Positions 13,744 through 49,972 of a stretch of 64,000 nucleotides of DNA are shown one piece after another; position 1 is the stretch's first letter, and the number at the start of each line of letters is the position of its first letter. The stretch lies in NCBI GenBank assembly GCA_017542145.1, contig JAFXXQ010000047.1, positions 186,001 to 250,000 of the forward strand, in the 5' to 3' direction. The notes under the pieces were generated by a model. That model was not told the origin of the DNA. It did not search any database and worked only from the letters and a program-made list of their open reading frames with translations. The position numbers and the translations under genes are program-made. The stretch comes from Bacteroidaceae bacterium (lineage in GTDB: Bacteria > Bacteroidota > Bacteroidia > Bacteroidales > Bacteroidaceae).

Positions 13744-13749
13744 TTACTT

Positions 13750-13822
13750 AGTTCATAGTTCATAATTCATAATTCATAGTTAAACCTCCGGCGAGCCGGA
13801 ACTAAACCATAAACCATTCTTA
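13750..13822 (+). repeat. 7-bp array (agttcat) plus G/C core between yicC and gmk
   Basis: About 4.5 tandem copies of agttcat/aattcat fill 13750-13781. A segment taaacctccggcg...aactaaaccataaaccatt follows, up to the gmk start. The same two ends recur around 29668-29815 before the NuoEF-like gene, so this is a composite element. Confidence 0.75.
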
Positions 13823-13823
13823 A

Positions 13824-14420
13824 ATGACCGGAAAGATTCTCATTTTCTCTGCCCCGTCAGGTTCGGGCAAGACCACCATTGTCAACTTCCTGCGCCAGCA
13901 GGAGGGGTTGAACCTCTACTTCTCCGTCTCGGCCACCAGCCGCCCCCCGCGCGGCACGGAGCAGGACGGCGTCGACTACTTCTTCGTCACCCCCGACGAG
14001 TTCCGCGCCAAGATTGCCCGAGGCGAATTCCTCGAGTACGAGGAGGTCTATCAGGACCGCTTCTACGGCACCCTCACGGCGCAGGTCGAGGCGCAGCTCG
14101 CCCTCGGCCAGAACGTCATCTTTGACGTCGACGTGAAGGGCGGCATCAACATCAAGCGCCACTACGGCGACCGCGCCCTCAGCGTCTTCATCCAGCCCCC
14201 CTCCATCGACGAGCTGCGCCGACGCCTCGAACGCCGCGGCACCGATGCCCCCGAAGTCATCGACGAACGCGTTCGCAAAGCCGCTTACGAGCTCACCTTC
14301 GCCCCCCAGTTCGACTACATCCTCATCAACGACGACCTCGACACAGCCGAAGCCGAAATCCTCGCAAAAGTCAAGGAGTTTTTAGTTCATAATTCACAAT
14401 TCATAGTTCATAATTCATAG
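13824..14420 (+). CDS. gmk: Guanylate kinase
   Basis: 198 residues. P-loop SAPSGSGKTT at residues 9-18, then the GMP-binding SATSRPPRGTEQDGVDYFF and lid region. It phosphorylates GMP to GDP. The last ~13 residues (FLVHNSQFIVHNS) are encoded by the agttcat/aattcac array that starts at 14384, so the original C-terminus appears to have been overwritten or extended by the repeat. Confidence 0.95.
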   Translation: MTGKILIFSAPSGSGKTTIVNFLRQQEGLNLYFSVSATSRPPRGTEQDGVDYFFVTPDEFRAKIARGEFLEYEEVYQDRFYGTLTAQVEAQLALGQNVIFDVDVKGGINIKRHYGDRALSVFIQPPSIDELRRRLERRGTDAPEVIDERVRKAAYELTFAPQFDYILINDDLDTAEAEILAKVKEFLVHNSQFIVHNS

Positions 14421-14436
14421 TTCATAGTTCATAGTT
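14384..14436 (+). repeat. 7-bp array (agttcat) overlapping the gmk stop
   Basis: About 7.5 units of agttcat/aattcat/aattcac run from inside gmk to past its stop codon. The array supplies both the final codons and the stop. Confidence 0.8.
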
Positions 14437-14486: not shown

Positions 14487-15224
14487 GTGAGAATCGGCAT
14501 ATTTGGCGGCACGTACAACCCCATCCATCTCGGCCATACCGCGTTGGCAAGCTACATCTGCAACCTCGGCCTCGTGGACGAGGTGTGGCTGATGGTCAGT
14601 CCCCAGAACCCCTTCAAGCAAGACCATCAGCTGCTCGACGAAGCCGTCCGTCTGCGTCTCGCCACCCTTGCCGTGCAGGACTTCCCCCGTCTGCGAGCCA
14701 GCGACTTCGAGTTCCATCTCCCCCGCCCCTCCTACACCTACGTCACCTTGCAGGAGCTCACGCGCACCTGTCCCGACGACACCTTCAGCCTCATCATCGG
14801 CGCCGACAACTGGGAGAAATTCCCCGGGTGGCGCAACGCCGACGACATCCTCGCCCGCTACCCCCTCATCGTCTATCCGCGCGAAACGGTTAACGATGAG
14901 CGCTTAGCGGTTAGCGACGGCCATATGCGCGAAACGGTTAACGATGAGCGCTTAGCGGTTAGCAACGGCGCTGCAACCAACGCGCCCCCCTCCCTCACGG
15001 GTTTCTGTCCCCCGATAACGGGGGAACCGAAGGGGGTGCAAAGACCATTGAGGGTTGGGGGTGGGTCTCCTATTTTCCTCTCCTCCGCTCCCCTCTACCC
15101 CATCAGCTCCACCGCCATCCGCGACGCCATAGCCGCAGGCGAGGACGTCAGCCTGTGGCTCGACCCTGCCGTCTACGACCTCATCCGCCATCTCGGCCTC
15201 TACCGACAAACGACAAGCCGTTAA
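14487..15224 (+). CDS. nadD: Nicotinate-nucleotide adenylyltransferase with an internal insertion
   Basis: 245 residues from GTG 14487 (VRIGIFGGTYNPIHLGH, the nucleotidyltransferase (H/T)xGH motif). It makes NaAD from NaMN and ATP in NAD synthesis. The C-terminal SSTAIRDAIAAGEDV and final ..LGLY match the family. Between YPLIVYPRE and APLYPISSTAIR there is an extra ~60-residue, repeat-derived segment (two copies of RETVNDERLAVS, then TNAPPSLTGFCPP). The family is normally ~190-200 residues, so the excess matches the insert. Both halves stay in frame and look intact. Confidence 0.93.
   Translation: MRIGIFGGTYNPIHLGHTALASYICNLGLVDEVWLMVSPQNPFKQDHQLLDEAVRLRLATLAVQDFPRLRASDFEFHLPRPSYTYVTLQELTRTCPDDTFSLIIGADNWEKFPGWRNADDILARYPLIVYPRETVNDERLAVSDGHMRETVNDERLAVSNGAATNAPPSLTGFCPPITGEPKGVQRPLRVGGGSPIFLSSAPLYPISSTAIRDAIAAGEDVSLWLDPAVYDLIRHLGLYRQTTSR
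14880..15083 (+). repeat. In-frame repeat and palindrome insertion in nadD
   Basis: A ~36-bp unit containing cggttaacgatgagcg and cttagcggttag is repeated at ~14880 and ~14929, followed by a C/G-rich palindromic segment ending near 15083 with gggttgggggtgggtctcc. The latter resembles the elements at 16.3, 16.5 and 19.5 kb. The whole insert is translated. Confidence 0.75.
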
Positions 15225-15226
15225 CC

Positions 15227-15330
15227 CTTGTTACCTTGTTACCTTGTTACCTTGTTACCCTGTTACCCTGTTACCCTGTTACCTTGTTACCCTGTTACCG
15301 TGTTACCCTGTTACCTGTTACCGTGTTACC
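15227..15330 (+). repeat. 8-bp array (gttacctt/gttaccct), left flank of island
   Basis: About 13 units of gttaccyt, with one 7-bp step, lie just after nadD. The inverted version is at 21779-21855. Apart from the repeats, 15225-15575 contains no gene. Confidence 0.85.
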
Positions 15331-21761: not shown

Positions 21762-21778
21762 GCGTAGCCCGCAGGGAC

Positions 21779-21855
21779 AGGGTAACAAGGTAACAGGTAA
21801 CACGGTAACAAGGTTACAGGTAACAGGGTAACAAGGTTACAGGTAACAGGGTAAC
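21779..21855 (-). repeat. 8/7-bp array (ggtaacaa/ggtaaca), right flank of island
   Basis: About ten units, in inverted orientation relative to the gttaccyt array at 15227-15330. The spacing mixes 7 and 8 bp, and some units read ggttaca. The rest of 21762-22044 holds only the next promoter. Confidence 0.85.
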
Positions 21856-21934
21856 ATTCTTGAGATAGTCAACCCTGCACAACCCTTCCCCCCGATGCCC
21901 ACTTTTATTCATAATGTTAAATTATTATTATTTC

Positions 21935-23263: not shown

Positions 23264-23268
23264 AAGTT

Positions 23269-23297
23269 AGTTCATAGCTCATAATTCATAGTTCATA
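23269..23297 (+). repeat. 7-bp array (agttcat)
   Basis: Four units of agttcat/agctcat/aattcat lie just after the macro-like gene. Confidence 0.7.
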
Positions 23298-24921: not shown

Positions 24922-25977
24922 ATGGAAGAAGAGAAAGAAAAAAAACAGACTTCACGCAGAAAGTTCCTGAAGATTGGAGGCTCGGTGGTGGTAGGTGCTG
25001 CCATAGCGGGAGCTGCCGGACGCAGCCTCTGGAAGATGGTTACCGACCCGGGCAAGCTGTTCTATGGGGGGTCAACGGGTCAACAGGCGGGCGGGTCAAC
25101 AAGTCAACGGGATGGCGGGTCAACGGGCTGGCAGCAGACGGGAGGCTTCGCAACCGAGGAGGAGATAACGGCCTTCGAGGTGGACGAAACCCGTCAGCTC
25201 ATCCTCGCGGCCTCGGAAGGCTCGGTGGCACTCTACTCCACCAAAGGTGCCCTCACACTCCGTTTTCCCCTTCCTTCCGAACGCGGGACGGTACGCGACA
25301 TGGCTGTCGGTGATGGCCTCATCTATGTGCTCCACCCCACGTGCATAGGGGTTTATGACTTCGACGGCAGGGAGGTGAGGTCATGGGAGGCATGTAGCGA
25401 AACGGCCGACCATTGCGGCATCGCCGTCACCCGCAACGGCGTGTTCGTTACCGACGCCGGAGCAAAGAACATCTGCCTCTATGGACACGACGGCTCGATG
25501 AAACGCTTCATCAACAGCCCCAAGGGCTTCGTGGTGCCGAGCTATTCGTTCGGCATAGCTCATCTGGGCGACGACATCTATTGCTCGAATCCCGGACGTC
25601 ACCTCGTGGAGCATTACTCGGCCGAGGGGGACTTTGTCGGCTCGTTCGGGCAGGCGGGTACCGCCGACGGAGCCTTCTGCGGATGCTGCAACCCCGTCCA
25701 CATCGCCTTCACCCCGACAGGCGACATGCTGACAAGCGAGAAGGGACGTCCCCGCATCAGCTGCTTTGCTGCTGACGGGACATTCCGCAGCACCCTGCTG
25801 AATGCCCCTGAGCTGGGTGGTGGGCACGACGCATACGACATCAAGGTCATCGGAAGCCGTCTGGCTGTAGCGAAAGGAAAGAATGTTGCGTTCTACCAGT
25901 ATGGCGGCCCTCATACTGCGGCAACAGGGCTCTGCGGCAAGTGCACGGCACCATGCCCGCTGAAAGTAACCATTTAG
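24922..25977 (+). CDS. Tat-exported NHL/six-bladed-type propeller protein
   Basis: 351 residues. The N-terminus has the twin-arginine motif SRRKFLKIGG and a hydrophobic segment (VVVGAAIAGAAG), implying folded export by Tat. A Gly/Gln/Thr-rich linker at ~50-72 is encoded by gtcaacrg repeats. The body repeats NHL-like blades (GVFVTDAGAKNICLYGHDG, DDIYCSNPGRHLVEHY, SFGQAGTADGAF). The C-terminus CGKCTAPCPL could hold a metal or Fe-S centre. Tat export with Cys motifs and Fe-S neighbours suggest a periplasmic redox role (inference). Confidence 0.82.
   Translation: MEEEKEKKQTSRRKFLKIGGSVVVGAAIAGAAGRSLWKMVTDPGKLFYGGSTGQQAGGSTSQRDGGSTGWQQTGGFATEEEITAFEVDETRQLILAASEGSVALYSTKGALTLRFPLPSERGTVRDMAVGDGLIYVLHPTCIGVYDFDGREVRSWEACSETADHCGIAVTRNGVFVTDAGAKNICLYGHDGSMKRFINSPKGFVVPSYSFGIAHLGDDIYCSNPGRHLVEHYSAEGDFVGSFGQAGTADGAFCGCCNPVHIAFTPTGDMLTSEKGRPRISCFAADGTFRSTLLNAPELGGGHDAYDIKVIGSRLAVAKGKNVAFYQYGGPHTAATGLCGKCTAPCPLKVTI
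25070..25130 (+). repeat. In-frame gtcaacrg-type repeats in the Tat propeller gene
   Basis: gtcaacgg/gtcaacag/gtcaacaa units separated by G-rich spacers encode GGSTGQQAGGSTSQRDGGST, just after the signal region. Confidence 0.7.
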
Positions 25978-26007
25978 TTCATAGTTCACAATTCATAATT
26001 CATAGTT
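25975..26007 (+). repeat. 7-bp array (agttcat) at a gene junction
   Basis: It starts inside the stop codon region of the preceding gene and ends two bases before the next ATG (26009). Confidence 0.7.
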
Positions 26008-27816: not shown

Positions 27817-29631
27817 ATGAAAAAAGGCATCTATAGGAACATAGCTTTGGTGACTACCGCCTTTGCCGTAGCTGTCATCACCATGATGGGTGTCAGCTGG
27901 TGGCAGATGCGTAAGGCCACACCACTCAAGACCGAGGTGATGGAGACGCTCAGGCAGCTGAGCGACACGAATGCCGACAACGAAACGCTGGCCGAGCAAG
28001 TCCGCGAGCTCGACCTGCTGTCGCGAAAGGCTTACTTCACCCAGGAGAGTCAGCTGAAGAAAGGTGGCTGGATACTCTGTGCCATGGCGGCCGTGATAGC
28101 GTTCAGCCTGCGGATGTATTATAAGGATACGAAGCAACTGCCCGACAAAGACCTCGACCCCATCGACGAATGGCTGACCAAGAGCCGTGCCCGCCGCTAT
28201 CTCGGATGGGGGGTAGGCGCTATCGTGGCCATAGGACTGATAGTCGTGACCATGAACGGAGTGAAAGAGAGGAAACTGGCGGAAGTCAACAGGTCAACAG
28301 GTCAACAGGTCAACAAGCTGGCGGATGATAGTCCTGAATCAGAGCCGACGACGGAGCTTTCATCTGATAGCCTGGAAGGCGACAGGTCAACAGATCAACA
28401 GGCTGGCAGGCTGGCAGATCAACAGAAATCTGACAGCCTGGAAGAGAAGTCTGACAGCCTGAAAGTCCCTGCTCCGCCCCCTCTGCCCAAGCTCACGTGG
28501 AACGGCTTCCGTGGCACGGGCAGCACGGGACGCTCGGCTGCCCGCGGCCTCCCCACCTCGTGGAATCTGGGTAACGGCAAAAACATCCTCTGGCAAACAC
28601 CCGTTCCTCGACATGGCTATAACTCACCCGTCATCCACGGACGCAACATCTTCATCACGGGTGCCGACAGCGAGAAACGCGAACTCTACTGCTTCGACCT
28701 CTGGACGGGCGAACTGCTGTGGACCGTAGCTGCCACCGGCATCACAGGGTCGCCAGCCCAGATGCCCGACGTCTCCGCCGACACAGGCCTGGCCGCCTCT
28801 ACCGTAGCCACCAACGGCAAGCAGGTTTGCGCCATCTTCGCGACTGGCGACATCCTCTGTACCGATATGGAGGGCAGACGCCTCTGGGCCAAGAACCTCG
28901 GCGTCCCCGACAACCACTATGGCTTTGCCTCGTCGCCGCTGATGTATGGAAACACGTTGATTATCCAGTACGACAACAACGATGCCTCGCGGCTCATCGC
29001 CCTTAGTGCATCGTCGGGGCGTGAGCTATGGAGCAAGAGCCGCAAGGACAAGATTGCCTGGAGTTCGCCCATCCTTGCCAAGGTGGGCAGCCAGCAGGCC
29101 GTCATCGTCATGGGCAATCCCGCCGTAACCGCCTACAAGGTGTCCGACGGCGAGGAGCTCTGGCGTGTGGAGTGTCTGAGCGGCGAGGTGGGCGCCAGCC
29201 CCTGCACGGCCGACGGCATCATCTATGCCGCCAGCGAATATGCCACCTGCGTGGCCATCCGTGCTGCCGACGGCGAGACGCTTTGGGAGGCTGGCGACTG
29301 TCTGCCCGAGTGCTCCAGCCCCGTGGCAACGAAGGACAAGCTCTACGTGGCCACCAGCTATGGTGCTGTCTGTGCCTACGATGCCGCTACCGGCGAGGTC
29401 GTCAAACAGCACGAGCTGACCACACCCTTCTACTCATCGCCCGTCATCGCCGACGGCAAGGTGTGGATTTTCAGCAACAGCGGCAAGTGCTACATCTTCT
29501 CTGCCGGCAAGGACTTCCGTCTCATCACCAGTTTCGACACCGGTGAACAGACCTTCGCCACCCCAGCTTTTTCGGACAGCATGATGGTTGTCCGTTCCGA
29601 CAAGAGCCTATATGCAATCAAGAAGAAATAA
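27817..29631 (+). CDS. Membrane-anchored PQQ-like beta-propeller protein 2
   Basis: 604 residues. Three hydrophobic segments lie in the first ~150 residues (ALVTTAFAVAVITMMGVSWW; WILCAMAAVIAFSL; GWGVGAIVAIGLIVV), which should place the C-terminal propeller outside. A ~60-residue repeat-derived linker follows (STGQQVNK, LADDSPES). The propeller then opens with WNGFRGTGSTGRSA and has six or more blades of the type LYCFDLWTGELLWTV. A paralogue of the propellers at 23.4, 33.3 and 38.4 kb. It follows the NapH-like gene by 7 bases. Confidence 0.85.
   Translation: MKKGIYRNIALVTTAFAVAVITMMGVSWWQMRKATPLKTEVMETLRQLSDTNADNETLAEQVRELDLLSRKAYFTQESQLKKGGWILCAMAAVIAFSLRMYYKDTKQLPDKDLDPIDEWLTKSRARRYLGWGVGAIVAIGLIVVTMNGVKERKLAEVNRSTGQQVNKLADDSPESEPTTELSSDSLEGDRSTDQQAGRLADQQKSDSLEEKSDSLKVPAPPPLPKLTWNGFRGTGSTGRSAARGLPTSWNLGNGKNILWQTPVPRHGYNSPVIHGRNIFITGADSEKRELYCFDLWTGELLWTVAATGITGSPAQMPDVSADTGLAASTVATNGKQVCAIFATGDILCTDMEGRRLWAKNLGVPDNHYGFASSPLMYGNTLIIQYDNNDASRLIALSASSGRELWSKSRKDKIAWSSPILAKVGSQQAVIVMGNPAVTAYKVSDGEELWRVECLSGEVGASPCTADGIIYAASEYATCVAIRAADGETLWEAGDCLPECSSPVATKDKLYVATSYGAVCAYDAATGEVVKQHELTTPFYSSPVIADGKVWIFSNSGKCYIFSAGKDFRLITSFDTGEQTFATPAFSDSMMVVRSDKSLYAIKKK
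28283..28468 (+). repeat. Coding copy of a repeat element with a shared core
   Basis: rgtcaaca units (28286-28317) are followed by a core at 28318-28376 that is ~80% identical to 39655-39713, then by gacagcctggaa-type repeats. All are translated as the linker of the propeller protein. Confidence 0.8.
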
Positions 29632-29816: not shown

Positions 29817-32210
29817 GTGTCCTGTGAGAATTGTAAGATAACGTCGCCCGACGAGGCACGCCAGTCCATCCGCCTACGGACGGACGCCCTCATCGAGCGT
29901 GTGGGGCGTCGCCGCGATTGCATCATCCCCCTGCTGCAGGCCATACAGGGAGAGTTCAACTATCTGCCTGCCGATGCCCTCGAACGTGTCTATGAAACCA
30001 CAGCCATCGACCGTGCTCAGGCCATCTCCGTCGCCACGTTCTACGGCCAGTTCCGTATGATGCCCTACGGCCGCCACACCATCCGTGTCTGCTGCGGTAC
30101 TGCCTGCCATGTAAAAGGGGCTAATACCGTCTATGACGCTTTCCGGCGCGAGCTCTCCATGACCGACGACACCATCACCACCTCCGACGGACGCTACTCC
30201 GTCGAAAAGATAGCCTGTCTGGGCTGCTGCGCTCTGGCGCCTGTCGTACAGATCGATAACCGCATCTTCGGACATGTCCAGCCTGGGCGGGTGCGCGAGG
30301 TGCTGAATGCCTTTGAGGAGGCAGAGCAGCAAGCCGACGATAGCCGACATGCCCGCCGTCCAGCCCAGGAGCCACAGGGCGAGATACGCCTGGGTATGGA
30401 AAACTGCTGTCAAGCCAGCGGGACAGCCGAAATCCGTGAGGCCGTCGAACGTGCCTGTCGTGAACTAGGCATCCACGTCACCCTCAAACCCGTGTCGTGT
30501 GTGGGTGCATGCGGCCAGGTACCGCTCATCGACGTCGCCACACCCGACGGACACATCACCCGCTATCCCAACCTGCAGCCCGACCAGGTCAAGGAAATCC
30601 TCCTCCACCACTTCCGTCCCGCTTCGCCCCTGCGCCGTCTGTTCAGCATCGCTATGAACAGCGTCGACAATCTCCATACCGACCAGACGTGGGACAACAT
30701 CCTCTACCTTCCTGAGGAGCTACGCACAGGACGTCTGCGTCCCTTCTTCGACGGTCAGCCCCTGCGCATCTCCACCGAAGGCTACGGCCTGATGAATCCC
30801 CTCGACATCGATGAATATATCCACCGCGGGGGCTTTGAAGCCCTGCGCCGGGTGCTCTCCACCGAGCCTCAGACCGTCATCGACGAGGTGCTGCGCAGCG
30901 GCATCCGCGGCAGGGGCGGCGGCGGATTCTGGGCAGGGCGAAAATGGCAGCTCGTGGCCGATGCCGACGACGACGAGAAGTACGTCATATGCAACGGCGA
31001 CGAAGGCGACCCCGGGGCATTTATGGACCGCATCCTGCTGGAGAGCTACCCCCTGCGTGTCATCGAGGGATTGCTCATTGCGGCTCATGCTGTGGGAGCA
31101 CGCCGCGCAATCCTTTACATTCGCGCCGAATATCCGCAGGCCGTCATCCGCGTGCGCCGCGCACTCGAGCTGTGCCGCCAGCGCGGCTTGGTCGAAATTG
31201 GGTCAGAAGTTAGAAGTGAGAAGGTAGAGGTATCCATTTTCGAGGGTGCCGGAGCCTTCGTCTGTGGCGAAGAAACTGCCCTCATCGCCTCCATCGAGGG
31301 GCGACGCGGCTTCCCCAGCCTACGTCCGCCCTACCCCGCCGAGAAAGGGCTGTTCGGCCATCCCACGCTCATCAACAACGTCGAGACGCTCAGCCAGATT
31401 CCCCACATCATCCTAAACGGTGCCGACAGCTATGCCAGCGTGGGCACCCCGCGCAGCACGGGGACGAAAGTCTTTGCCCTTGCCGGGAAAGTGCGCCGTG
31501 GGGGACTCATAGAAGTGCCCATGGGAACCACGCTCCGTCAGATTGTCGATCAGATTGGTGGCGGCATGGAGGGCAACGTCCTGCTCAAGGCTGTGCAGAC
31601 GGGCGGTCCTTCAGGTGGCTGTATCCCCGCCGAACTATGCGACGCCCCCGTCGATTTTGATGCGTTGGCTAGCATGGGCACCATCATGGGCTCCGGCGGA
31701 CTAGTGGTGCTTAGCGCCGACGACTGCATGGTTGACGTGGCGCGCTATTTCGTCCGTTTCGTCTCTGGCGAGAGCTGCGGCAAGTGCACCTTCTGTCGTG
31801 TGGGCGTCAAACGTATGCTCGACATCCTCGACCGTCTGGCCACAGGCCAGGGAACGATGGACGACATCAACCGACTCGAGGAACTCGCCCGTGACATCAG
31901 CCGTGCCTCCCTCTGTGGTCTGGGCCGTTCCGCCCCCAACCCCGTGCTCTCCACCCTGCGCTACTTCCGCCACGAATACGAGCAGCATGCCCAAGGCAAA
32001 TGCCCCACCGGCTCATGCCGGCAGATGGTCCATCTTGCCGTTACCGATGACTGCATCGGCTGCACCAAGTGTGCTCAAGTATGCCCTGCCGACGCCGTAC
32101 CCTTCACCCCCTACCAACGCCCCACCATCGACACCACCCGCTGCACCCTCTGTGGACTTTGTCTGGAGGCGTGCGACCTCAATGCCATCCGATATGAAAA
32201 TAACCGTTAA
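29817..32210 (+). CDS. NuoE-thioredoxin-NuoF fusion: NADH-oxidising Fe-S flavoprotein
   Basis: 797 residues from GTG 29817. Domains in order: NuoE-like [2Fe-2S] (CCGTACHVKGA, CLGCCALAP; ~30-165); a second thioredoxin-like [2Fe-2S] (NCCQASG, SCVGACG; ~195-280), as at the start of HydB; the NuoF core with NADH/FMN loops (RGRGGGGFWAGRKW, CNGDEGDPGAFMDR); SLBB; the N3-type site SCGKCTFC; and a two-cluster ferredoxin (CIGCTKCAQVCP, CTLCGLCLEAC). This is the architecture of HydC plus HydB of NAD-dependent hydrogenases, fused. It should oxidise NADH in the cytosol. It overlaps the next gene by 17 bases. Confidence 0.9.
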   Translation: MSCENCKITSPDEARQSIRLRTDALIERVGRRRDCIIPLLQAIQGEFNYLPADALERVYETTAIDRAQAISVATFYGQFRMMPYGRHTIRVCCGTACHVKGANTVYDAFRRELSMTDDTITTSDGRYSVEKIACLGCCALAPVVQIDNRIFGHVQPGRVREVLNAFEEAEQQADDSRHARRPAQEPQGEIRLGMENCCQASGTAEIREAVERACRELGIHVTLKPVSCVGACGQVPLIDVATPDGHITRYPNLQPDQVKEILLHHFRPASPLRRLFSIAMNSVDNLHTDQTWDNILYLPEELRTGRLRPFFDGQPLRISTEGYGLMNPLDIDEYIHRGGFEALRRVLSTEPQTVIDEVLRSGIRGRGGGGFWAGRKWQLVADADDDEKYVICNGDEGDPGAFMDRILLESYPLRVIEGLLIAAHAVGARRAILYIRAEYPQAVIRVRRALELCRQRGLVEIGSEVRSEKVEVSIFEGAGAFVCGEETALIASIEGRRGFPSLRPPYPAEKGLFGHPTLINNVETLSQIPHIILNGADSYASVGTPRSTGTKVFALAGKVRRGGLIEVPMGTTLRQIVDQIGGGMEGNVLLKAVQTGGPSGGCIPAELCDAPVDFDALASMGTIMGSGGLVVLSADDCMVDVARYFVRFVSGESCGKCTFCRVGVKRMLDILDRLATGQGTMDDINRLEELARDISRASLCGLGRSAPNPVLSTLRYFRHEYEQHAQGKCPTGSCRQMVHLAVTDDCIGCTKCAQVCPADAVPFTPYQRPTIDTTRCTLCGLCLEACDLNAIRYENNR

Positions 32211-34338
32211 CCAACAACCCCTCGACGTATCGCCTCACCGTCCTCTTATCGAATCCCTGCGTGCCGCGGGATACGACATCCCCTCGATGTGCTACGCCTC
32301 AGACCGGCGCCACCAGCCGTCGTGTATGGTCTGCATGGTCAAGGACGTCCACACGGGGCAGATGATACCCTCCTGCTCCACCCTTCCCCGCGAAGGGATG
32401 GAGATTGAGGCCGACACCGAGGAGGTCCTCGGCATGCGACGTCAGGCGCTTGAGCTGCTCCTCAGCGACCATCGTGCCGACTGCGAAGCCCCCTGTACGA
32501 TTGTCTGTCCACAAAGTATCGACGTGGCGCGCGTCCTGCTCCACTACGACCGCGGCGAGCTGTCCGCAGCCGCTGCCGAGCTGGGCGACAAGTCGTGCGA
32601 CGGATGCAAGGCTCCCTGCGAACGGGCCTGCCGACGCCGCACGGTGGATGCGGCTGTCAGCATCCGCTCTCTTCTGGATGAAGTGAGGAGGGAAGGTCAA
32701 CAAGTGAGCAGGTCAACAAGTCAACAAGACAACAGGTCAACAAGTCATCAAGACAGCCTCTCCCAGCGTGTTGACCTGTTGACTTGTGGGCCTGTTGACC
32801 TTTTCAACAGCCGTTTGGGTCGTTTCACCGATGCTGAGAAAGAGCGCATGAAGCAGCTCTACACCCAACCCTCACGTTGCTTGCATTGTGCCTGCGAGGG
32901 AAACGAAAAATGCCGCCTCCGCGAGCTAGCCACCAAGGCTGGCATACGGATGCCGAAATATGGCGTACAGTCGTCGCTACCCGTCAAGGAACGCATCAAA
33001 GTCACAGAACGTCTCGTCTATGAACCTGCAAAATGCATCCGTTGCGGGCTCTGTGTCTATAACACCGACGATGGCTTTACCTTCGAACGCCGCGGCTTCG
33101 ACATGCGGGTCGTCATTCCCGAAGAGAGCAAGTCGCACGTCGGCGACGAGGTTGCCCGGCTGTGTCCTACGGGGGCACTCCATCTGCGTGTTCTGACACT
33201 ACTGCTCCCCCTGCTTATGTTGTTTTCAGGATGCGGGCAGGGAGGACAAAACTCCTCAAAAAGGGAGAACAGCAACATGGGAACTCACGAATGGACTTCC
33301 TTCCGCGGGGGCACATCCCTTGCCGGATACACATCCAACCCGCTCCCCGACAGCCCCCGTCTGCTTTGGGAGTACCGTCATGGGGTACGCACCGTGGCTG
33401 CACCCATCGTCAGCCAGGGAACGGTTTACATGTGTGACAAGCACGGACAGCTGCGTGGCTTTTCCATCGCCGACGGGACACCCACGTATTCGCTCGACCT
33501 GGGCGGCGACGTAGAAGCGCCCTTTGTCACGGCCGACACCTTATTATATATAGGACAGATGGATGGCCAAGTGCGTGCCCTCTCGCTCACCGATGGCGCA
33601 GAGCTGTGGCACTTTGAGACGGAGGGACAAATCCTAGCCTCACCCACCCTCCTGCCTCGTGGAGTACTCGTCGTGGGCAGCTATGACAACACGATGTACA
33701 CCCTCGATTCCCGCACGGGCAACGCTGTGGGACGAGCCTCCACGGGCTATTACATCAATGGTGCAGCAGCCATCTGGCGGGACACCTTCGCCCTCTTCGG
33801 AGGCTGTGATGCCTGGCTACGCGTCAGCGACCTCAGGACAGGACTTGTCACCGACTCCATCCGCCTTGATGCCTATCTGCCCGCATCGCCTGCCCTCGAA
33901 GGTGACTTTGCCTACGTGAACGACTATCAGGGCAATCTGTACGAGATACGTTTTACCAAGGACGGCCACATCGGCGGGCATCGCAAGATGCTCGCTGCCG
34001 AGGGTGATGAAGGCGGCACGACGTCCATGCCGGCTGTCACAGCCGATGCTGTCTTTGTGCTTGCCGAAGGACGTTTTCTCGTCTGTATCGACCGTGCCGA
34101 CGCCCATGTCCGCTGGAAGCAGATGCTGAGAGGCGACGTAGGCGAGTGCTCGCCGCTCGTATGCGCCGACCGCGTGCTTGTCTGCACACGCACGGGCATC
34201 ATCTCCATCCACGACGTCCGCACAGGGCGCTGCCTCTGGACATACGAGACAGGTGAACAGATTGTTGCCTCCCCCGCGGTGGCCGCAGGGAAGATATTTG
34301 TCCTCACAGCTCGCGGCACACTACTCTGCTTTTCATAA
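32194..34338 (+). CDS. NuoG/HydA-like Fe-S module fused to an extracytoplasmic PQQ-like propeller
   Basis: 714 residues from ATG 32194; the frame is open further upstream, but that part is antisense-free shadow of the previous gene. Residues 1-~335 hold a [2Fe-2S] ferredoxin (CYASDRRHQPSCMVC), the NuoG-type Cys region (CEAPCTIVCPQSIDVAR, CDGCKAPCERAC, CLHCACEGNEKC) and CIRCGLCV. Directly after ARLCPTGAL comes LTLLLPLLMLFSGC, a membrane or lipobox-like segment. A propeller opening WTSFRGGTSLAGY follows. No ATG, GTG or TTG start precedes the hydrophobic segment in frame, so one polypeptide is likely. A ~35-residue repeat-derived insert lies at ~168-203. Inferred: transfer of electrons from the NuoEF-like partner across or to the membrane. 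Confidence 0.85.
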   Translation: MKITVNQQPLDVSPHRPLIESLRAAGYDIPSMCYASDRRHQPSCMVCMVKDVHTGQMIPSCSTLPREGMEIEADTEEVLGMRRQALELLLSDHRADCEAPCTIVCPQSIDVARVLLHYDRGELSAAAAELGDKSCDGCKAPCERACRRRTVDAAVSIRSLLDEVRREGQQVSRSTSQQDNRSTSHQDSLSQRVDLLTCGPVDLFNSRLGRFTDAEKERMKQLYTQPSRCLHCACEGNEKCRLRELATKAGIRMPKYGVQSSLPVKERIKVTERLVYEPAKCIRCGLCVYNTDDGFTFERRGFDMRVVIPEESKSHVGDEVARLCPTGALHLRVLTLLLPLLMLFSGCGQGGQNSSKRENSNMGTHEWTSFRGGTSLAGYTSNPLPDSPRLLWEYRHGVRTVAAPIVSQGTVYMCDKHGQLRGFSIADGTPTYSLDLGGDVEAPFVTADTLLYIGQMDGQVRALSLTDGAELWHFETEGQILASPTLLPRGVLVVGSYDNTMYTLDSRTGNAVGRASTGYYINGAAAIWRDTFALFGGCDAWLRVSDLRTGLVTDSIRLDAYLPASPALEGDFAYVNDYQGNLYEIRFTKDGHIGGHRKMLAAEGDEGGTTSMPAVTADAVFVLAEGRFLVCIDRADAHVRWKQMLRGDVGECSPLVCADRVLVCTRTGIISIHDVRTGRCLWTYETGEQIVASPAVAAGKIFVLTARGTLLCFS
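32695..32800 (+). repeat. In-frame palindromic element (rgtcaaca ... ctgttgac) in the NuoG-like gene
   Basis: Left arm of rgtcaaca units, a core ending cccagcgtgttgac, and a right arm of tgttgacc/tgttgact units. It shares the core with both insertions in aroA. It encodes STSQQDNRSTS...SQRVDLLTCGPVD. Confidence 0.85.
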
Positions 34339-35081: not shown

Positions 35082-38000
35082 AACAAGCAGAGTCTGACGT
35101 ATTACCGCCGATTCTATCGCCTGGCAGCTGCCAGCGTGGTGGTGATGATGGCTACCCTCGCAGGTAGCATCGTACTGGGCGACTCGGTACGCGGCTCGTT
35201 GGCTGACAGGGTGGACGAACGGCTGGGCGAAACGCAAACGTTGGTACAGACTGGCGCAGGGTATATCGACGACAGCGTGATGAGCCATCCGCTCCTCGCC
35301 TCGGCACAGGGGTATCTGCTTTGCGAAGGGTTCGTGTCGGTGCCGGGCTCGGGGCAAGGGATGACGCCCGTCAGCGTGTGGGGTACAGACGCCCGTTCGC
35401 TTGCGTGGGGCGAGGCACTCTTTGGTGAACAGCTGGCGAGGCTACTGGGGACGGCGGACAGAGTTGTGCTTCATCTGCCTGCCCGTGGATTGATGCCCGC
35501 AGGGTCGCTGTTCGTGTCACAGGAAACAACCACACAGCTCAGCCTCTCCGTGAAAGGTATGAAGACAGCGGCGCAGGGAGGTAACATGCTATTGCATGGC
35601 GAACAGATGAGGCCGAATAACATCTTCGTCAATCGCCATGAACTGGCCGTAATGCTGGGTGTAAACGAGGACGAAGACGAAGTCAACGGACGGAGCAGCG
35701 AGAGCCATCAAGTTTATTTGGATGGCCGAGTCGCGACGGACGAAGGCGTAGCCAACGTCATTCTTTCGCCAGAAATAATTCAGGCAGCTGACTTTGCTCA
35801 GGTCTGGTGTCCCGAGGCTTCGGGCATCCGCTGGAAAGATGGTGTGGTGACCACCCAGCGGCTGTTTCTGCCATCGGGCGTGACCGACGTGTTGCAACCC
35901 CAGAACCGCTATCTGGCTTATTTCGTTAACAAAATACAGGGCACGGACGACAAAACGCTAGCCTACTCCTTCGTCACCGCCACGGACAGACTACATGGCG
36001 ACGAGGCCGTACTGACGGACTACGCTGCCCGCCGTCTGGGTGCCGCCGTAGGCGATACGGTAGAGATGGAATACTACGTACAAACCCCGGGGCTGAAACA
36101 GCTGACAACGCGAAACCGCCGATTCGTGGTGGCAAGCATCGTATCCGTGGAGTCGTTGGCGGGCGACAGCCTGGTCAAGGCATCGTTCCCCGGACTAACG
36201 GGGGTGGCGCGCTGTACCGACTGGGACAGCGACCTGCCCATCGACATGAGCCGCATCACACCCGACGACGAGGAGTATTGGCGTCTGTATCGTCAGACGC
36301 CGAAGGCTCTCGTCAGCTACGAAGCCGTGAAAGACCACTGGGCTGCTCCGGGCATCGGCGCTGCCACCTTGGTAACGGGTGTGACGGCCGAGCGCATGGT
36401 GCTTCTAACACCCGATGACGTAGGTATCTCTGTGGTGCATCCGCGCGATGCTGCCATCCAGGCCGCCCTTCACGGCACAGACTTCACCGGGCTATTCCTG
36501 GCCTTGGGATTCTTCATCATGCTGGCAGCAGCATTGTTGATGGCCAGTCCCCTGACGGAGATGTATGCCCTGCGACAAAGCGAGACGGAACTGCTCGGCG
36601 TGCTGGGCTTCGCCCCCCGTCAGGTGCGCCGGCGACTGTTCAGCGAGGCGGCACCGGTGCTTCTGGCCTGCACACCCATAGGGGTGGTGGCGGGTTTTGC
36701 ATACGCAGCCCTAATGCTCGGTCTGTTGGCCGGAGCTTGGAACGGAGCTACACACACCGACGGCTTCACGCTCCACGTCCATGCCGCCTCGCTGATTATC
36801 GGCTGGGCAGCAGGGGCAGCGGCGTGCATGGCGATTCTCGCCTGGTGCATACGACGCAGCATACAAAAATCCGAAAATACGGAATTACGGAAATACGGAA
36901 TTACGGAATCACGGAATTACGGAAATATAGAATCACGGGATTACGGAAATACGGAATCACGGAATTACGTCTTCTTCATTTCACTCGCTGTCGTGACGGT
37001 GGGGCTTGTGGTGCTTAACTTCACGCTTTTCCACAGCCTGGCACTCTTTGTCGTGTGCGGACTGTTGTGGATGGCGTGTGCGGCCATGGCAGCATCTATA
37101 AAATTAGGAATTAGGAATGAGGAATTAGGAATTAGGGGGAAATTATCAATTAAATTAGGAATTAGGAATGAGGAATTAGGAATTAGAGGGAAATTATCAA
37201 TTGTCAATTATCAATTATCAATTATTTACTACCGCCGTCAGCATATGCTGACGTTCTGGACGTTGGCCGCGGGCGTATTCACCGTCTTTGCCGTGGGCCT
37301 CAACCGTCCGGACGTCCGCCACGCTGCGCCAGAGATGACAGGCGGCTACGACCTCTTCACCGAAATGGTCGTACCGCTGAGCTACGACTTGACGGGCCTC
37401 GAAGCACGACGCCATCTCGCCTTAGGCGACATGCCCGGGGAGACACGTTTCCTGCAGCTGGCACGGCACACCGAGGACGAGGCAAGCTGCTGGAACCTCA
37501 ACAAGGTGACCACACCAAGCGTGCTCGCCATGCCGACAGAGGCCATGGCGTCGTTTGGCATCGACAGGACAAAGATGGAGAAGGCCACCGATGACGGACT
37601 TATACCCGTGGCTGTAGATAAGGAGGCGTTGCTGTGGAGTATGATGATGAAGGTGGGCGACACACTCGTCTATCGTGCGGCCGACGGACGTGAGATGAAG
37701 GCACTCATCGTCGCCTCGTACCCCACAGGGGTTCTCCACGGCCATGCCATCATGGCGGACGAATGGTTCCGGCACTTGTGGCCTGAGGAAACAGGGAGTC
37801 GCGTGATGCTGGTAGGTAGCGAGGACACCGACAAAGCTGCCGACATGCTTTCCACAGCCCTCGCCGACTATGGCATTACCGTGACCACCACCGCCGAACG
37901 GCTAAAACGTTTCTATGAGGTCACGGATGCCTACCTCAGCATCTTCCTCTCGCTGGGAGGACTGGGGTGCTTGCTGGGGCTTGCCAGCCTCGTCATCGTC

Positions 38001-48619: not shown

Positions 48620-49972
48620 ATGATTCGACTGAGCATAGCCAATAGAGCCCTTGGATTGCGAGGGAGCATCGTATTGCCGGCATCCAAAAGCATCAGCAAC
48701 CGTGCCCTGCTGCTGAGCCAGCTATGTGTCGACGGCCCTGCCCATCTGAGCAATCTGGCTGACTGCGAGGATACGAGGGTGATGCGGGAAGCCTTGTTTG
48801 GGTCAACAGGTCAACAGGTCAACAGGTCAACAAGTCGCTTTGTGGACCGAACCCAGCGTGTTGACTCTTTGACCTGTGGACTTGTTGACCCCCAAATCAT
48901 CAACGTCCAAGGGGCAGGAACGGCGATGCGGTTCCTGACAGCTTACTTCGCTCAATGCAAAGGAGCGAATGTCGTCCTCACGGGTATTGAGCGGATGAAG
49001 CAGCGTCCTATTGCTCCACTCGTTGACGCGCTTCGGCAACTCGGCGCAGACATCAGCTATCAAGAAAAGGAAGGCTTCCCTCCGCTCGTCATTCGGGGGC
49101 GTCGGCTACAGGGAGAGAGCATTTCGATTGACGGTAGCCTCAGCTCACAGTATGTTTCGGCCTTACTGATGATTGCCCCTTTGGCTGGCGCACGTAGGCT
49201 GACGCTGACGGGGCGTATTGTCTCGCGGCCTTACATCGAAATGACGCGTGCGCTGATGGCCCGCTTCGGAGTACAAACCACATGGGAAGACGAACATACG
49301 CTACTCATCCCCTCCTCCACCTATCACGCCAAGCCCCTTGCCATTGAAGGCGACTGGAGTGCTGCCTCCTACTGGTTGGCTTTTGAAGCTCTTGCACGGC
49401 AGCAAGGTATCTCCTACGACATTACGCTCAACGGCCTCACTACGCCCTCCCTGCAAGGGGACAGCGTTTGTGCGGAGTTTTTTAATGAGTCAACAAGTCA
49501 ACAAGTCAACAAGTCAACAAGTCGCTTTGCAGACCGCACCCAGCGTGTTGACTCGTTGACTTGTGGACTTGTTGACCCCATAATAGTTGACTTTACCGAC
49601 TGCCCCGATTTGGTGCAGACGATGGCTGTAGCGTATTGTCTTTTGGGCAAGCAGTTTGTCTTTACGGGAACAGAATCGCTGCGCATCAAAGAAACGGACC
49701 GCATTGCAGCATTGATTACGGAATTAGGAAAGCTTGGGTATGAACTGCACTACGAAGATGGAACGCTGAAGTGGGATGGGAACAGAAGTCCACAAGTTCC
49801 CCATAGCATTGCCACTTACAACGACCATCGGATGGCTATGGCATTCGCGCTTGCGGCTATGACGCACGATTCTGTTCTGATAGAAAGCCCCGAAGTTGTC
49901 AGCAAATCCTATCCAAGTTTCTGGGACGACCTCAGCAGAGTAGGATTCAAGGTGGAAGAAATAAAGGGTTAA
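48620..49972 (+). CDS. aroA: 3-phosphoshikimate 1-carboxyvinyltransferase with two repeat insertions
   Basis: 450 residues. It makes EPSP from shikimate-3-phosphate and PEP in the aromatic amino-acid pathway. Core motifs: LPASKSISNRALLLSQL (N-terminal), GAGTAMRFLTAY, SSQYVSALLM, and RIKETDRIAAL near the C-terminus. Two inserts of ~30 residues are in frame: residues ~60-92 (STGQQVNRSTSRF...RVDSLTCGLVD) and ~289-320 (STSQQVNKSTSRF...RVDSLTCGLVD). They fall at loops between conserved blocks, and the reading frame and catalytic residues are intact. Without them the length matches the ~410-residue family size. Confidence 0.95.
   Translation: MIRLSIANRALGLRGSIVLPASKSISNRALLLSQLCVDGPAHLSNLADCEDTRVMREALFGSTGQQVNRSTSRFVDRTQRVDSLTCGLVDPQIINVQGAGTAMRFLTAYFAQCKGANVVLTGIERMKQRPIAPLVDALRQLGADISYQEKEGFPPLVIRGRRLQGESISIDGSLSSQYVSALLMIAPLAGARRLTLTGRIVSRPYIEMTRALMARFGVQTTWEDEHTLLIPSSTYHAKPLAIEGDWSAASYWLAFEALARQQGISYDITLNGLTTPSLQGDSVCAEFFNESTSQQVNKSTSRFADRTQRVDSLTCGLVDPIIVDFTDCPDLVQTMAVAYCLLGKQFVFTGTESLRIKETDRIAALITELGKLGYELHYEDGTLKWDGNRSPQVPHSIATYNDHRMAMAFALAAMTHDSVLIESPEVVSKSYPSFWDDLSRVGFKVEEIKG
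48801..48891 (+). repeat. In-frame palindromic element, aroA copy 1
   Basis: Four ggtcaaca units, the core tcgctttgtggaccgaac then ccagcgtg, and an inverted arm of ttgactct/ttgacctg/cttgttgac units. Confidence 0.9.
49488..49577 (+). repeat. In-frame palindromic element, aroA copy 2
   Basis: Four agtcaaca units, the core tcgctttgcagaccgcac then ccagcgtg, and an inverted arm. The arms pair over ~30 bp with two mismatches. It encodes nearly the same peptide as copy 1. Confidence 0.9.

Follow-up and report, generated by a model that had tools for sequence, protein, structure and literature searches.

In-frame palindromic repeats with octamer arms in aroA and other genes of a Bacteroidaceae genome: a family that probably works like the Rickettsia palindromic elements

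The window, by which we mean the whole 64-kb stretch of Bacteroidaceae DNA that was analysed, carries an aroA gene whose product scores 283.6 bits against PF00275 in a Pfam profile search and whose reading frame is open from end to end across two palindromic inserts. The gene and the parts of its inserts are as follows.

48620..49972, + strand: aroA, EPSP synthase of 450 aa, the host gene (ORF; PF00275 E=3e-84; PDB EPSPS match E=4e-69; fold match)
48801..48890, + strand: palindromic element 1, in frame, with inverted arms; repeats element 2 in direct orientation (hairpin -49.8 kcal/mol, z -6.95)
48801..48832, + strand: element 1 left arm, 4 x RGTCAACA (repeat scan, palindrome alignment)
48833..48858, + strand: element 1 core, AGTCGCTTTGTGGACCGAACCCAGCG (from the sequence; related core at other loci)
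48859..48890, + strand: right arm of element 1, made of inverted octamers; its third unit reads TGTGGACT, whereas TGTTGACT would make an in-frame TGA
49488..49577, + strand: palindromic element 2, in frame (hairpin -51.0 kcal/mol, z -8.97); present at this aroA site in the window genome only
49488..49519, + strand: element 2 left arm, 4 x AGTCAACA (repeat scan)
49520..49545, + strand: element 2 core, AGTCGCTTTGCAGACCGCACCCAGCG; near-identical core in the extragenic copy C19
49546..49577, + strand: right arm of element 2, with GGA in place of TGA in the third unit

Each element comprises four head-to-tail octamers, a 26-nt middle and four inverted octamers, with arm complementarity of 85% over arms of 33 nt and 87% over arms of 38 nt; in the direct array of element 2, 4.5 units match at 100%. 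In register the two elements, the starts of which lie 687 apart, are 89% identical over 99 nt, and within the 26-nt middle they have in common the core GTCGCTTTG..GACCG.ACCCAGCG. They encode nearly the same 29-aa peptide, STGQQVNRSTSRFVDRTQRVDSLTCGLVD and STSQQVNKSTSRFADRTQRVDSLTCGLVD. The proposal of the first-pass annotation, that two in-frame palindromes of ~90 bp with octamer arms, a shared core and inverted arms interrupt aroA and yield nearly the same peptide, was confirmed at 48801-48890 and 49488-49577 and is borne out by the translations; both are short palindromes with a strong hairpin, as would be expected of elements of the type of the Rickettsia palindromic elements (RPEs).

The same annotation held that the frame and the conserved blocks of aroA are intact, and this stands as well. 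In the AlphaFold model of AroA (mean pLDDT 86.3), segments below 50 occur only at residues 64-88 and 292-317, which are the two inserts, while the remainder of the model matches EPSP synthases in a fold comparison; in an alignment of 22 AroA sequences, every invariant column falls outside both inserts. Judging by the AroA model alone, the inserts lie in loops without disturbing the fold, which is again a mark of RPE-type elements.

As to the genome at large, the arm pattern was found 26 times in the window, with 0.03 matches expected, and 163 times genome-wide (two octamers and a half, one mismatch allowed), compared with none for a reversed control pattern. The window genome, of ~3 Mb, is a fragmented assembly of 54 contigs; the loci were surveyed with a simple ORF caller in 1.198 Mb, amounting to 38% of this one MAG. 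Among the 42 octamer-array loci in this survey, 26 lie inside genes, 8 are intergenic and 8 are at gene edges; some dozen of them form palindromes around a related core, and many of the genic copies are direct octamer arrays without a palindrome, an aspect that goes beyond the first-pass annotation. The octamer is also the commonest tandem family with a 6-10-bp unit in the surveyed DNA (46 arrays, 27 of them genic). Assigned by Pfam or by sequence, its hosts include UvrA, class III fructose-bisphosphatase, a GltD-like protein, an Fe-alcohol dehydrogenase, glycosyltransferases, a SpoU methylase, GH67, GH18, SusD, a TonB receptor, DUF5686 and DUF6029. Palindromes are read in the same frame in UvrA, the GltD-like protein, the class III fructose-bisphosphatase, the Fe-alcohol dehydrogenase, a glycosyltransferase and a protein that we take, from family knowledge of its sequence, to be DusB; in all, about ten or more housekeeping genes besides aroA carry the repeat with the frame unbroken. 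The insert peptide itself has 14-20 matches in each of the window genome (G000) and three related genomes, G003, G011 and G016, in which counts one palindrome may figure on both strands. Arms, core and peptide thus recur throughout the genome, the copies being scattered between genes and, in frame, within conserved genes that are unrelated to one another, and the conserved peptide being encoded in a single frame, both as in RPE-type elements. Three of the further copies lie in the window.

32695..32800, + strand: further palindromic element in ORF 31732-34338 (2Fe-2S/PQQ-type ORF); TGA changed to GGG
28284..28315, + strand: array of direct octamers, read in frame within the PQQ_2/BamB-like ORF 27817-29631
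25070..25125, + strand: octamer array, diverged, read in frame within ORF 24922-25977, which has no Pfam match

Two other kinds of repeat were noticed in this genome. A second palindromic coding module ("core 2", GGAGCAGCGAGCGGAGAA..CCGAGTCGCGACAGAGGTCGAGCG), with octamer ends and often located beside octamers, occurs at C20:10750, C20:45056, C52:34620, C53:3837, C29:46438 and C36:125224 and is read in at least two frames, differing between genes. The window also harbors other tandem families of 7-8 bp, namely TAGTTCA, ACCCTGTT/GGTAACAA, TACGGAAT and AATTAGG, at 13749-13781, 14383-14436, 15224-15330, 21777-21856, 23268-23297, 25975-26007, 36878-36969 and 37102-37186.

The sequence of the octamer bears on how such a repeat could be accommodated in genes. 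An array of (RGTCAACA)n is stop-free in all frames, whereas on the complementary strand each frame meets a TGA once per 24 bp; lacking a stop in any frame, the octamer would help the element to persist in genes, and the TGA carried per frame by the inverted arm would limit genic survival to copies without that codon. In keeping with this, the in-frame TGA has been lost in all eight genic palindromes that were sampled, being replaced by GGA in four (aroA twice, uvrA and gltD) and by GGG, AGA, AGT (fbp) and CAC in the others, but is kept in all four full-length extragenic copies (the C19 copy, counted as extragenic, overlaps an opposite-strand ORF of 169 aa without a Pfam match). Fisher's exact test gives p ~0.002 (1/495) for this difference on the assumption of independent copies, an assumption that may fail for the four with GGA; the five different replacement codons argue against a single inherited change as the only cause. 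Tandem families that have stops on both strands (AACTATG, AACTCTT and AAACGTT) are genic in 0 of 29 arrays as compared with 27 of 46 for the octamer. The contrast between coding copies, in which the stop was lost in several ways, and extragenic copies, in which it was kept, provides a clean test of a selfish repeat surviving by being translated, an idea already put forward in the first-pass annotation and supported here, the in-frame stop being lost only in coding copies. Strand bias of the arrays within ORFs was dropped as a main argument, being partly built in (an opposite-strand array would itself end the ORF), and an apparent insert in reverse orientation turned out to be the palindrome matching itself, with the usual frame as the open one.

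Four close species, averaging 92% (G003), 93% (G016), 84% (G011) and 81% (G017) identity to G000 over 15 host proteins, make gain, loss and replacement of inserts directly readable. At aroA site 1, the window genome has its element and G003 and G011 have a related one, with none in G016 and G017; site 2 is filled in the window genome only and is empty in all four relatives, so that the inserts are not common to aroA in these species. The cleanest empty site 2 is that of G011 (..TTTTTTAAAAAGTC/CCCCATAATAGTTGAC..), in comparison to which the window has 84 bp extra between AGTC and CCCC, with no clear target-site duplication at this site; flanks at most sites have diverged. Site 2 of G003 holds one and a half octamers, GGTCAACAAGTCAA. 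Because site 2 is filled only in G000 and empty in G003 and G016 as well as in G011, the simplest history is one in which the element was gained on the branch leading to G000. At site 1, the left arm in G011 (L063) has 7 octamers vs. 4 in the window, a difference of exactly 24 bp that keeps the aroA frame and suggests frame-keeping slippage in an essential gene. Fifteen further host families likewise have sites that are empty, filled or replaced among relatives, and the insert in uvrA is kept in three species; presence or absence at a given site is thus variable here as among RPE-type elements. Octamer arrays were absent from the other 14 genomes of the genus, and family-wide they have a patchy spread, occurring in 9 of 399 genomes belonging to four genera, namely G000, G003, G011, G016, G017, G128, G154, G167 and G377. 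Outside the close species, right-arm sequence codes for VDSLTCGLVD/VDSLTCGPVD in two genes of G128, from another genus, and a QueG-like protein of G167 has SQQVNKSTGQQV; in G154, also of another genus, the C-terminus of a topoisomerase IV/gyrase A-like protein (L339) has SQQVNESTSQQVNESTSQQVDESTSQQ, derived from a ten-unit octamer array.

In aggregate, the repeat is dispersed, is sited both between and within genes, is present or absent between close species and, in the genic palindromes sampled, lies in frame and is stop-free in one fixed frame. We consider it likely, with a probability of roughly 0.75, that these repeats form a non-autonomous, translation-tolerant family that works in the manner of RPEs. 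According to this reading, short repeats comprising RGTCAACA octamer arms, a core of ~26 nt and inverted arms would be copied around the genome and would insert more or less indiscriminately, with selection on the host genes probably purging frame-breaking copies, those with a stop and those that land in a structured region; the survivors would be copies in flexible loops of tolerant proteins, and their arms may later grow or shrink by three octamers (24 bp) at a time, as at site 1 of G011. Movement between loci and tolerance of the inserts are what we surmise here. Several origins for the repeat were considered and rejected. A Y1 transposase (PF01797) had no match in G000, G003, G016 and G017 (84-89% complete) and one in G011, completeness of all five being 84-93%, and a RAYT/Y1 transposase was set aside as the mover since four of the five array-bearing genomes in the clade have no match to it; phage origin was discounted with no DNA or peptide match among 50,697 phage records, and a structured RNA family with tRNA as the sole match in the window.

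Loops that hold the octamer element in the window genome often harbor a different repeat family in relatives, a second aspect that extends the first-pass annotation. In tonB of G003 and G016 (L292, L295), we found a palindrome coding for SPQPSPKGKGVRSPLLQEG and related to one in fbp of G003 (L254); in the glycosyltransferase of G016 and G003, heptamer arrays code for KGEGLKVK; and in G017, the loop of spoU holds KTSDKTSDKTSD and that of GT2 holds NPSPLTSNLTSNPS. The palindrome family of tonB and fbp in G003 and G016 (CCTCCTTCAGGAGGGG) was observed to code for SPxPSPKGKG..SPLLQEG. The reuse of one loop by several repeat families is a tangible argument that new protein sequence can come from repeats. 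We only tentatively entertain the broader notion that loops of conserved proteins serve as docking slots common to several unrelated repeat families (octamer palindromes, GAAGGG..CTTCAGGAGGGG palindromes and heptamer arrays), one of which might replace another through a common, as yet undescribed insertion or conversion process, with the loops turning over along with the repeats of the genome.

The foremost rival to a dispersing family is that each array was born locally, by slippage from chance octamers in permissive loops, with the inverted arms arising by template switching in the hairpin and nothing moving between loci. Slippage could indeed produce the many genic arrays that consist of direct octamers alone, site 1 of G011 differs in unit number by three octamers, and the one and a half octamers at site 2 of G003 could be a seed or a remnant. 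We nevertheless regard local birth as rather improbable, given that slippage cannot produce a core of ~26 nt common to unlinked genes and intergenic copies, that the octamer family is confined to 9 of 399 genomes in four genera, and that a joint gain of arms and core at a new site is already partly seen at aroA site 2.

Alternatively, the inserts might serve their hosts as linkers, with disordered loops rich in Ser/Thr/Gln/Asn aiding host proteins and repeats supplying such loops; recurrent filling of the same loops by different repeats in different species, as well as retention of the uvrA insert in three species, would fit this notion. However, other relatives have short or empty loops at these places, and amino-acid constraint is much weaker on the inserts than on their hosts, as evidenced by a pN/pS of 0.54 (50 nonsynonymous and 24 synonymous changes) in pooled orthologous inserts vs. 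0.08 (127 and 452) in host flanks, with the pooled species pairs not being independent. We thus find a linker function unlikely; the translated peptide appears to be an unstructured loop under little constraint, which the host would simply tolerate.

Very unlikely, in our judgment, is that the arrays are contingency loci in which the gain or loss of a single 8-bp unit shifts the frame as a phase-variation switch. Although the unit length is not a multiple of three and arrays can be perfect, as exemplified by aroA element 2, the hosts are mostly housekeeping enzymes rather than surface or modification genes, arrays are found in intergenic DNA too, and a switch has no need of a palindrome with a core; phase variation may still arise as a side effect, and octamer arrays predict essential genes that are prone to frameshift. 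Removal of the insert from the mature product, whether cut from the RNA or skipped by the ribosome as with the bypass elements of mitochondria, would be in accord with the strong mRNA hairpin, but genic copies that are stop-free in one frame, with TGA lost by several routes, would be needless if the insert were skipped, and we hold this explanation to be highly improbable. An artefact of assembly or binning of the MAG, for which its fragmentation into 54 contigs might speak, is scarcely credible, since species that were assembled separately have related elements, always in frame, at matching positions of aroA and uvrA.

Returning to the reading of a translation-tolerant repeat family, its closest parallel is with RPEs, which are short palindromes (~100-150 bp) in many copies, found in intergenic DNA and in frame in conserved genes with a conserved peptide, with a given host gene harboring different groups from species to species and with one assayed host enzyme, Gmk, that is active with its insert (PMC10969869, PMC3767692, PMC2229807). 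Short dispersed palindromes, in-frame genic copies, a conserved peptide and different repeats at one host gene across species are found in both systems. What sets the present repeats apart is that their arms are built of tandem octamers, which are found as simple direct arrays too, that they reside in a member of the Bacteroidales with a 3-Mb genome, and that other short-repeat families also take up the loops. The likeness to RPEs drawn in the first-pass annotation is a fair description of behaviour; it concerns the way of working rather than relatedness by sequence.

Among other repeats, there are MITEs with fused reading frames, such as ERIC and the 107-bp form of Correia/NEMIS; for Correia elements, a stop-free form in genes and a stop-bearing form confined to intergenic DNA have been described (PMC2229807). 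Small hairpins and this same split are features of the octamer element as well, but target-site duplications and TA ends, which those MITEs have, were not seen in it. REP/REPIN-RAYT systems resemble it as dispersed short palindromes and differ in that REPs are extragenic by name and that the window genome has no Y1/RAYT match. The STRR heptamer arrays of cyanobacteria are known as non-coding arrays; they too are tandem-array families of 7-8 bp, several of which exist in the window genome, whereas the octamer belongs to a palindrome and lies largely in genes. PARCEL is likewise a palindromic coding repeat of patchy distribution, but one that forms a tandem 25-aa domain mostly of membrane proteins (PMC2996958), in contrast to the single inserts in housekeeping enzymes described here. 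Judging from the work cited in PMC2996958, the palindromic elements of Wolbachia and the coding palindromes of Methanocaldococcus jannaschii are protein-coding and in frame in assorted genes, as the octamer element is, in other lineages. The open-licence literature yielded no match to the octamer array or its peptide and no description of such inserts in Bacteroidetes; as far as that literature goes, there is apparently no account for Bacteroidales of octamer arms, of simple direct arrays or of one repeat family replacing another within a loop. To our knowledge, octamer arms are not a feature of the Wolbachia and M. jannaschii elements either. In-frame coding palindromes, described in the cited papers for Rickettsia, Wolbachia and one archaeon, are thus placed by the octamer element in a Bacteroidales lineage.
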